DNA of 41,133 bases from Bacilli bacterium (GTDB lineage: Bacteria; Bacillota_I; Bacilli_A; RF39; UBA660). The first letter of the stretch is position 1. Every line of letters starts with the position of its first letter. The DNA lies in assembly GCA_017940575.1 (NCBI GenBank), contig JAGAYJ010000010.1, forward strand, positions 1-41,133. The letters are read 5' to 3'. Under the pieces are notes generated by a model. That model was not told the origin of the DNA. It worked only from the letters and a program-made list of their open reading frames with translations, and did no database searches. A program made the translations under genes and the position numbers. Positions 5,659 through 11,133 of this stretch are shown in pieces.

Positions 5659-7714
5659 TAAACAACTAGAAGCAGTAAAGATTACTGAAGGACCTCTTTT
5701 AGTACTTGCAGGTGCTGGTTCAGGTAAGACTAAAGTATTAACTACAAGAATTGCTTATTTAATTAAAGAAAAGAATGTAGATCCATACAATATTTTAGCT
5801 ATTACATTTACTAATAAAGCAGCTAAAGAGATGAAAGAAAGAATTATTAACTTAATTGGTAGTATTGGATATAGTATGCAAATATCTACATTCCATTCAT
5901 TTGGATTATCTATCATAAAAGATAATTATGAACTTTTAGGCTATAAACCAAATTTCACTATATTAGATAGTGATGATACTTTAACGCTTATTAAAAAGAT
6001 ACTTAAGGATATGAATATAGATCCTAAAATATATAATCCTAAAGCTATAAAAAATAGTATATCAAGCGCTAAAAATGAACTAATCGATTCTAAAAAATAT
6101 TCTAAATATGTTGGAAGTGAATTTGAATCAATTGTACTTGATGTTTATAAACAATATGAGAGTAGACTTATATCTAATAATGCACTTGATTTTGATGACC
6201 TACTTATGAAACCAATTGAGTTATTTAACAATAATCCTAGTGTTTTAAAAGAGTATCAAGAAAGATTTAAATATATATTAATTGATGAGTATCAAGATAC
6301 AAATGAAGCACAATACCTACTTACTAAAATGTTATCGGCTAAATATAAAAATATATGTGTTGTTGGAGATGACTCACAAGCAATATACTCTTGGCGTGGC
6401 GCTAATTATAGAAATATCCTAAACTTTGAAAAAGACTATAAAGATACTAAAGTAGTATACTTAGAGGAAAATTATAGATCAACTAAAACTATATTAAATG
6501 CTGCTAATAGTGTTATTAAAAATAATGTTGATAAAAAAGAAAAAAACTTATGGACTAATAATGAAGAAGGAGTAAAAATAACTTACCATAAAGCTTTATC
6601 AGAAGTAGATGAAGCATGTTATGTTAGAGATGAAGTTAAAAAACTAATTAAAGATGGAATAAGCCCTTCTGATATAGCTATCCTATATAGAACTAATGCT
6701 CAATCACGTGTTATGGAAGATGCTATGTTAGAAAGTCAAATTCCATATAAAGTAATAGGAAGCTTTTATTTCTATAATAGACGTGAGATTAAAGATTTAA
6801 TTAGTTATTTAAAACTTATATATAATAATGATGATGATACTTCTTTAATTAGAATAATCAACACTCCAAAAAGAGGAATAGGACTTAAAACAATTGAAAA
6901 TTTATCTATAAAAGCATTAGAAAATAATACATCTATGTATAATTCAATTGATAGTGGTAAAGAACTTATTTTTAAAAACTTAATTGAAGAATTAAAATTA
7001 GAACAAGATAAATTATCATTAACAGAACTTGTTGATTTAGTGCTTAACAAGTCTGGTATGAAAGAAGAACTTGTCAAAGAAAACTCAATTGAAGCAGATA
7101 TAAGACTAGAAAACTTAGAAGAGTTTAAATCAATTACAAGAAGCTTTGAAGAAGCAAATGGTATTATTTCTTTAGGAGAATTCTTAGAGCAAATCACACT
7201 TGTATCAGATATGGAAGAACATAAGAATAACGATAATGTAGTAACACTTATGACTATTCATTCAGCTAAAGGATTAGAGTTTGAAAATGTATTTATAATA
7301 GGTATGGAAGAAGGAATATTTCCACATAAAAACTCAAGTGATTTAAGAGAAGACTTAGAAGAAGAAAGAAGACTTTGTTATGTTGCAATAACACGTGCAA
7401 AGAAGAATTTATATTTAGTAAATGCTAAAAAAAGAATGATATTTGGTGAGACTTCTTATAACATGCCAAGTAGATTTATTAATGAAATAGATCAAAATTG
7501 CCTAAATGTTGACAGTAAAGTTGAAGAAAAATTTGACAAAACATCAATGATTAGTGATACAATAGATTATAGTGTAGGGGATAAAGTAGAACATGATACT
7601 TATGGAGTAGGTATAATTGTATCTATGGATAAATCAATTGTAACTATTGCATTCCCACATCCTATTGGAATTAAGAAAATGATTAAAGGACATAAGTCTA
7701 TAAGGAAGGTGTAG
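5639..7714 (+). CDS. pcrA: ATP-dependent DNA helicase PcrA/UvrD
   Basis: This 691-residue SF1A helicase has all its motifs: Walker A GAGSGKT at 25-31, motif Ia TFTNKAAKEMKER, motif II LIDEYQDTNEAQ near 215, motif III GDDSQAIYSWRGA, motif IV YRSTKTI, motif V TIHSAKGLEFENVF and motif VI VAITRAKKNLYL. The C-terminus carries the Tudor-like fold typical of PcrA (VGDKVEHDTYGVGII at about 645-659), which contacts RNA polymerase in relatives. It is slightly shorter than Bacillus PcrA because the linker before that fold is short. It unwinds DNA 3' to 5' in repair, rolling-circle replication and transcription-replication conflict. Its start at 5639 lies within the previous gene, with AAGGA eight bases upstream. 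The ribosome binding site of the next small gene overlaps its stop. Confidence 0.96.
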   Translation: MLENLNDKQLEAVKITEGPLLVLAGAGSGKTKVLTTRIAYLIKEKNVDPYNILAITFTNKAAKEMKERIINLIGSIGYSMQISTFHSFGLSIIKDNYELLGYKPNFTILDSDDTLTLIKKILKDMNIDPKIYNPKAIKNSISSAKNELIDSKKYSKYVGSEFESIVLDVYKQYESRLISNNALDFDDLLMKPIELFNNNPSVLKEYQERFKYILIDEYQDTNEAQYLLTKMLSAKYKNICVVGDDSQAIYSWRGANYRNILNFEKDYKDTKVVYLEENYRSTKTILNAANSVIKNNVDKKEKNLWTNNEEGVKITYHKALSEVDEACYVRDEVKKLIKDGISPSDIAILYRTNAQSRVMEDAMLESQIPYKVIGSFYFYNRREIKDLISYLKLIYNNDDDTSLIRIINTPKRGIGLKTIENLSIKALENNTSMYNSIDSGKELIFKNLIEELKLEQDKLSLTELVDLVLNKSGMKEELVKENSIEADIRLENLEEFKSITRSFEEANGIISLGEFLEQITLVSDMEEHKNNDNVVTLMTIHSAKGLEFENVFIIGMEEGIFPHKNSSDLREDLEEERRLCYVAITRAKKNLYLVNAKKRMIFGETSYNMPSRFINEIDQNCLNVDSKVEEKFDKTSMISDTIDYSVGDKVEHDTYGVGIIVSMDKSIVTIAFPHPIGIKKMIKGHKSIRKV

Positions 7715-8168: not shown

Positions 8169-8753
8169 TTAAGCAACCATTAAATTATTAGATTCATCAA
8201 ATAATTCAATAGGAATACATGAGATTTCTTCTAAATAAAATGGCTTTTTATTTTCTATAAGATAATTGATTTTTTCACTTGCCATCCAGCTTTGAGGCGC
8301 ACATTTAATATTATTTTTATCGGTATCGCTTATAACTAATCCCAGTAAGCAATTAATCTTTTCATATATTTTTAGTAGTCCATAATCGCCATCGTATAAG
8401 CTTCCGTATTTTTTAGGCTGTAGGTTATATAAATATGTATTAAATCCTTTTAATATATCTAAAAGTAGATGGAAAGTAGTTATTCTATATTGTAGTGATT
8501 CATTATCATTAATTTCACTCAATAAGATATTGTTAAATTTTTTAACATTATTTTTTATATACTTATATTTTTTAGATTTAGATTTAATATAATTTGGAAT
8601 AAATAAATCAATATTAGTTTTATGTAAGCCCACTAAGTGAAAAAAATTATCATTTTTAAACTTTATAATAATTGGATATTTATTACCTCTTTTAATAATA
8701 TAAACGTTTTTCTTTATTTCTTCGTAAGTATCAATTAATTGTTGTAATAACAT
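8169..8753 (-). CDS. Probable PBECR4-like nuclease (barnase/EndoU/colicin/RelE-like superfamily)
   Basis: The protein has 194 residues. The start at 8753 has GAGGTG as ribosome binding site (8759-8764). It is soluble, Lys/Asn/Ile-rich, and has no signal peptide. Residues 14-52 carry the pattern that made me recognise it: KNVYIIKRGNKYPIIIKF followed by NDNFFHLVGLHKTNIDLF. The HLxGLHK block after a short beta pair is typical of the PBECR4 family, predicted nucleases common in Firmicutes and their phages. The middle (60-115) is helical. CAPQSWMASEKINYLIENKK lies near residue 146. Assignment is from pattern memory, so it could be another HLxGLH-type family. The gene is the only one in its direction here and is preceded by a structured RNA with a terminator (8771-8907), so its expression is probably attenuated or the RNA is its partner. 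Confidence 0.6.
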   Translation of the reverse strand: MLLQQLIDTYEEIKKNVYIIKRGNKYPIIIKFKNDNFFHLVGLHKTNIDLFIPNYIKSKSKKYKYIKNNVKKFNNILLSEINDNESLQYRITTFHLLLDILKGFNTYLYNLQPKKYGSLYDGDYGLLKIYEKINCLLGLVISDTDKNNIKCAPQSWMASEKINYLIENKKPFYLEEISCIPIELFDESNNLMVA

Positions 8754-8770
8754 TTATACACCTCATTTCT

Positions 8771-8805
8771 AAAAAAAATAGAACTTATCATTAGATAAGT
8801 TCTAT
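8771..8805 (-). terminator. Intrinsic terminator between structured RNA and nuclease ORF
   Basis: ATAGAACTTATC/GATAAGTTCTAT is a perfect 12-bp stem (8778-8789 with 8794-8805) with a 4-base loop. On the minus strand it is followed by eight T (8778 to 8771). Only six bases separate the U-run from the ribosome binding site of the downstream gene. Confidence 0.88.
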
Positions 8806-8907
8806 AGTGGCTGCCTAATTAGATATTAGGCTATGGGTGCTTCTATTTTGCGCATTATAACAAAATTATAAACCGCCGAAGCTAGGCTGGGGCCACTGCC
8901 TCCCGTT
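8771..8907 (-). ncRNA. Structured RNA or leader of unknown class upstream of the nuclease gene
   Basis: Read on the minus strand, this stretch is GC-richer than its surroundings and folds well. P1 is 8892-8897 with 8806-8811 (AGTGGC/GCCACT). Inside it, P2 is 8878-8882 with 8839-8843 (GCTTC/GAAGC), and P2 encloses P3, 8866-8871 with 8855-8860 (TTATAA/TTATAA). P4 is 8825-8831 with 8813-8819 (GCCTAAT/ATTAGGC, loop ATCTA). The three-helix body directly abuts a 12-bp terminator hairpin (8778-8805) with eight U residues. A sigma-A-like promoter lies just upstream. No ORF of note is inside it. I compared it from memory with 6S, SRP, tmRNA, T-box and common riboswitch motifs and saw no match. It may be a stand-alone small RNA, a riboswitch-like leader or an RNA antitoxin. 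Confidence 0.6.
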
Positions 8908-8913
8908 AATAAT

Positions 8914-8943
8914 ATTATACTATAAATAAATAATATTATACAA
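8914..8943 (-). promoter_or_regulatory. Promoter of the structured RNA
   Basis: On the minus strand TTGTAT (8943-8938) is followed after 18 bases by TATAAT (8919-8914). Transcription would start near 8907, just before the GGGAGG that opens the structured RNA. The area is very AT-rich, so other -10-like boxes exist nearby. Confidence 0.55.

Positions 8944-11133
<2,190 letters not shown>

Follow-up and report, generated by a model that had tools for sequence, protein, structure and literature searches.

The window analyzed here, a stretch of 41,133 nucleotides from a Bacilli bacterium, carries on its minus strand, between positions 8943 and 8169, a structured RNA, a Rho-independent terminator, a ribosome binding site and a PBECR4 gene in this order, which is the layout of type III toxin-antitoxin loci or of attenuated genes that a previous sequence-only reading had recognized. 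All features given below are on the minus strand. The RNA core runs from a GGGAG segment (8904-8900) through the end of helix P1 (8804..8904). The 5′ strand of P1 (8892..8897) pairs with its 3′ strand (8806..8811), and the helix encloses P2 (8875..8887), an invariant GCC-UAGCUUC-GGC hairpin and the most conserved segment of the RNA, a variable hairpin P3 (8850..8874), an A-rich single strand found conserved by homologue comparison (CAAAAUAGAAG, 8840..8850) and P4 (8813..8831), a GCCUAAU/AUUAGGC hairpin. The intrinsic terminator (8771..8805) consists of the perfect 12-bp stem already described (8805-8778) and a T tract reaching 8771; the ribosome binding site (8759..8765, with GAGG at 8764-8761) and the gene for a 194-residue protein (8169..8753, ATG at 8753) follow, as had also been proposed. 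The RNA is indeed GC-richer than its surroundings (GC 0.44 in the core, compared with 0.27 across the window and 0.14 in the upstream region), and folding of the 137-nt RNA beats 200/200 dinucleotide shuffles (z -3.63).

Upstream of the RNA, a promoter-like TTGACA-17-TATAAT site (8996..9024) matches the consensus at 12/12 positions, and a similar site is found at orthologous loci when compared by eye. A second site closer to the RNA (TTGAAT-18-TATAAT, 8935..8964, 10/12) is weak, as AT-rich DNA gives a similar chance rate. A promoter had previously been placed at 8943-8914; this sequence is weaker than both upstream sites, and the presence of these stronger candidates leaves the 5′ end of the RNA unfixed. 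In a genome of the same genus the corresponding tRNA-Gln/ligA site has flanks 91% identical and another ORF in place of the module, which is thus accessory; the gap between the two genes resembles a site for cargo. The ORF occupying it in that genome (L167:743-1453) is unrelated and encodes ~237 aa. Elsewhere in the window, a sub-threshold match to Rfam n00280 (7334-7429, 59.7 vs. 65.2 bits) falls within the pcrA helicase gene and is probably mere coding-sequence homology.

The protein belongs to Pfam PBECR4 (PF18813; E 7.5e-9, 36.7 bits vs. a gathering cutoff of 27), a predicted RNase family, bearing out the PBECR4 affiliation suggested for this gene. Residue H39, within HLxGLHK, is invariant among 23 sequences and lies in a predicted helix (34-41), and S155 (PQSWM) falls in the 90%+ conservation class; by sequence, both agree with the His plus Ser/Thr active site predicted for PBECR RNases (PMC5512222). 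The structure model is confident (pLDDT 92.3), and the predicted fold resembles two unnamed viral proteins. A search of the PDB with this fold returned nothing at E <= 0.001, so that Pfam and the two conserved residues are what support a nuclease; the protein sequence did not match any PDB entry either. Furthermore, NCBIfam gave no match above cutoff, no ToxN/AbiQ, CptN or TenpN hit was obtained in Pfam, and PADLOC holds no model for the PBECR4 proteins of these loci.

A four-helix RNA family in bacteria and phages

Single-protein scans of genomes and viral contigs gave no match, and were replaced by a search pattern taken from the RNA core, RCCCCAGCCTANCTTCGGCG. Across 257 billion bases of genome sequence this pattern had 47 matches, vs. 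a few expected by chance according to our own estimate, mainly from uncultured Bacilli of the rabbit and ruminant gut together with a few Clostridia; a slightly shorter pattern recovered 10 stretches from viral contigs. Covariance model R1 hits the window at 8902-8804 with 82.6 bits, and 58 of the fetched loci at E below 1e-12. At gathering scores the window RNA matches no Rfam family, drum included, in keeping with the earlier view that it belongs to no known class. A resemblance to tsr26 was discarded as a chance match (21 vs. 141 bits, sub-threshold). A self-cleaving ribozyme, considered because of the GCC-7nt-GGC hairpin, was also rejected: no Rfam ribozyme matched, and P1 is unlike the HDV layout. 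Two further pattern hits (L020 and L097) arose by chance, the rest of the RNA being missing there.

Homologues reveal four helices, namely the long-range closing helix P1 together with P2, P3 and P4, rather than the three proposed from the single sequence. The structured RNA is real, since besides folding beyond all shuffles it covaries strongly across homologues: P1, P3 and P4 covary while P2 is invariant, none of 500 shuffles equalled the observed value on any of five measures, and all slid controls were exceeded as well. Five of the seven P1 pairs vary on both sides, with 97.4% of cells paired and pair sets such as UAGCA/UGCUA, UGACG/CGUUA, UGACA/UGUCA and UGGUA/UACCA, and all seven P4 pairs covary; the counts for P3 are lower because two length classes align in different registers. 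The maintenance of P1 pairing through changes between phage lineages argues that the structure is under selection. Large unpaired segments are also conserved among homologues. A possible H-type pseudoknot would join the 5′ GGG with a CCC inside P1; both are kept in 51/53 rows, and compensatory change is absent. As had been observed before, the RNA has no tandem repeats, being a single unit of ~100 nt.

Several copies are carried by phages. The RNA lies near phage tRNA arrays at three loci (L023, L026, L096), and in a rumen phage group it is placed between an exonuclease gene and the gene preceding the terminase large subunit, the fetched stretches of this group encoding no PBECR4; the L062 copy, on a prophage contig, has no head gene close by. 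The terminator is missing from phage copies, which are followed by unrelated genes or by tRNAs. The INPHARED phages lack both the window RNA and any close PBECR4. Integrase or recombinase genes adjoin several relatives (L018, L034, L066, L068).

Association of the RNA with PBECR4

Four orthologues from the same GTDB family are preceded by the same RNA, and in 25 distinct loci the PBECR4 orthologue starts 115-215 nt downstream of it. Many of these 25 loci were reached via the RNA, and for this reason separate protein-first searches, independent of the RNA, were carried out: the RNA was present just upstream of 5/5 PBECR4 orthologues in the window's own GTDB family (157 genomes), and at the only orthologue (1/1) in viral contigs. 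The check proposed earlier, whether the RNA always precedes this gene, thus comes out positive for the 5/5 family orthologues, but the reverse does not hold, as PBECR4 is missing downstream of the RNA at ~30 loci. At these loci the RNA does occur alone, a situation considered from the outset for a known RNA class, but it is the same new RNA. When 31 genomes or records, most of them with solo RNA, were searched with a profile, PBECR4 turned up only at L018 and L063; as the genomes are drafts, any absence is relative. At these two loci the RNA is intact and adjacent, and stops or frame changes interrupt PBECR4; the gene is divided over two frames around residues 37-50, in the vicinity of HLxGLHK, and may be a pseudogene, an assembly error or a case of frameshifting.

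Sister species sharing one chromosomal site show both states: L040 carries the RNA, PBECR4 and another gene, and L030, L050 and L053 carry the RNA alone, with flanks 87-88% and RNA 88-91% identical. Similarly, beside gltX, L044 has RNA and PBECR4, and L058 RNA alone. The broken genes beside intact RNA favour an origin of the RNA-only sister loci by toxin loss, the order of states being unproven. L040:4838-4938 and 5877-5962 cross-match L030 and L070, pointing to direct repeats of ~70-100 nt around the RNA-PBECR4 cassette, which could mediate its gain or loss. Among these orthologues the putative toxin is never found without the RNA and the RNA is often found without the toxin, the pattern predicted for a toxin-antitoxin pair; the retention of RNA-only copies over sister species suggests that the RNA may have a toxin-independent role too. 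Promoter-like sites lie between terminator and gene at L040 and L027, their chance rate being high and their weight slight when taken singly. At one solo RNA (L038:5859 onward), an opposite-strand ORF pair resembling, by eye, a YoeB/YefM-type toxin-antitoxin system follows.

Distant PBECR4 genes and their upstream RNAs

Large or divergent PBECR4 genes of the same family (L004, L008-L014) have no such RNA, nor do the large polyvalent phage proteins of which PBECR4 is also a domain (L107, L109-L112). Distant PBECR4 proteins of other families were collected by a Pfam search across the class. Nearly all the small ones, located in chromosomes, plasmids and phages, have an intergenic RNA-like region plus terminator before the start codon; with a simple detector, a terminator-like hairpin was found within 110 nt upstream in 14/20 of these genes vs. 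23/247 control genes. The exceptions without evident RNA are L106, directly after ffh, and L122/L126, after another gene (L121 is ambiguous).

The upstream RNAs are of several kinds, all differing from the window RNA. In two families (L099 and L101), the RNA is Rfam drum (RF02958) above gathering score, directly upstream of PBECR4 with a terminator between (L099:2029-2134 on the minus strand, L101:184-295 on the plus strand). Drum, for which Rfam lists no function, differs from the window RNA in sequence and fold, and is predicted to be the antitoxin at these loci. Further genomes yielded one extra drum, sub-threshold and on a contig ending too early for its neighbour to be judged; a drum-like DNA pattern retrieved only unrelated sequence from viral contigs. 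A second kind, made of two tandem units of ~50-55 nt with two hairpins each, precedes PBECR4 at eight loci, including plasmids of Macrococcoides (L123), Pediococcus (L124) and Enterococcus faecium (L125), Erysipelothrix phage phi1605 (L128), Streptococcus phage Javan100 (L129) and an Enterococcus phage (L130), besides L098 and L105; its second hairpin covaries. A different repeat lies upstream at L102 and L115. Four loci of one family (L100, L103, L113, L116) have, by eye, a common upstream RNA, GGGGTTAGAAATA ... ATTACCG ... TATCGGTAGAC; Rfam gave no match for it at L100, L103 or L113. RNAs of the type I antitoxin RatA also occur beside PBECR4, in three copies in the Enterococcus phage (L130:1098-2700) and as a sub-threshold match in the Pediococcus plasmid (L124:2099-2191).

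Proposed function of the module and its place among RNA-antitoxin systems

Type III systems are defined by a toxin gene, a terminator before it and antitoxin-RNA tandem repeats before that (PMC5086642). ToxIN, CptIN and TenpIN have in common with the window module the order of promoter, RNA, terminator and endoribonuclease-type gene, and the carriage on plasmids, phages and chromosomes. RNA mimics on phages are known for ToxIN, phage PhiTE being the precedent for a phage-borne RNA antitoxin mimic (PMC3475682), and the window RNA likewise has phage copies. On the other hand, the window toxin candidate is PBECR4 and no relative of ToxN, CptN or TenpN, and its RNA is one non-repeat four-helix unit of 100 nt; the two tandem repeats are matched in distant PBECR4 relatives, but not in the window. 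The module falls outside the known type III families. None of the three outcomes that the earlier reading named as refuting an RNA-nuclease module was seen, the predicted fold having found no PDB match. We nonetheless consider it rather probable that PBECR4 is an RNase-type toxin neutralised by the adjacent RNA in a type III-like manner. The RNA would be driven by its own promoter, most transcripts ending at the terminator and leaving the RNA in excess, and read-through, or a second promoter in some relatives, would provide little PBECR4 mRNA. The folded RNA would bind PBECR4 and cover its active site; should its supply fall, as upon loss of a mobile element or shutdown of host transcription by a phage, unbound PBECR4 would cleave RNA and arrest growth. 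Antitoxin might then be supplied in trans by the phage-borne RNAs, whether from tRNA arrays or from late regions.

Co-occurrence by itself fits an inhibitor, an activator or a guide RNA alike. The obligate co-occurrence and the large unpaired conserved segments would also suit an effector ribonucleoprotein, in which the RNA, instead of inhibiting PBECR4, would serve it in phage defence as cofactor, guide or activator. AbiF, a phage-defence protein with an adjacent structured RNA, is a published case, similar in that a structured regulatory RNA accompanies an Abi-type protein (PMC12373285); in Pfam, however, the window protein matches PBECR4 and no Abi family, and Rfam returned no AbiF-associated RNA. 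Such a particle is unlikely, since it does not easily account for solo RNAs in PBECR4-free genomes or for phage copies lacking the toxin, and the tandem-repeat RNAs of distant PBECR4 genes resemble type III antitoxins. Cis-regulation is a quite improbable explanation, even though riboswitches are typically laid out in this way, with an RNA and a terminator in the 5′ region of the gene, and some read-through is likely needed: if a riboswitch or attenuator merely set read-through into PBECR4, the gene should not be lacking downstream at so many RNA loci, nor should phage copies lie without terminator before unrelated genes or tRNAs. The solo and phage RNAs, the sites past the terminator at L040 and L027, with their high chance rates, and the unrelated RNAs at the same place in distant PBECR4 genes argue against pure attenuation, and a toxin-antitoxin pair fits better. 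It is very unlikely that the RNA is an independent small RNA of phages and mobile elements, acting in packaging or tRNA arrays, behind which PBECR4 merely hitch-hikes. Several phage copies do lie in the terminase/portal region and RNA-only loci are common, but the phage positions vary (tRNA arrays, before terminase genes, or away from head genes as in L062), the spacing to PBECR4 is held at 25 loci, and distant PBECR4 genes have upstream RNAs too.

In terms of protein family, the closest comparison is with the PBECR polyvalent phage proteins, which share the family and the predicted His plus Ser/Thr active site (PMC5512222); these are large and injected, whereas the window PBECR4 is small, single-domain and RNA-partnered. 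Solo PBECRs were described by Iyer et al. (2017), and no RNA link was found in the accessible part of that paper (PMC5512222). No mention of PBECR4 was found in open-access full text, and the open-access papers naming PBECR domains, in their accessible parts, make no link to an adjacent RNA. As far as open-access full text shows, the PBECR4-RNA link is thus new to the literature.

Among toxin-antitoxin systems neutralised by RNA, the module seems to represent a new branch. We give an even chance to the view that the PBECR4 proteins of Bacillota together constitute a large undescribed toxin superfamily, in which one fold would be guarded by several unrelated RNA antitoxins, with RNA decoys deployed by phages in tRNA arrays and late regions, and with toxin-free RNAs kept by hosts as immunity; the RNAs proposed for it are the four-helix RNA, drum, the two-repeat RNA (Enterococcus, Pediococcus and Macrococcoides plasmids, and phages) and further classes. 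If true, RNA-antitoxin systems would gain a toxin family unrelated to ToxN, one toxin could be guarded by structurally unrelated RNAs, and the orphan drum RNA would acquire a testable function. PBECR4 genes on Enterococcus and lactobacillus plasmids would also find an explanation, and the toxin-free RNAs in phage tRNA arrays would constitute a natural set of anti-defence RNA candidates.
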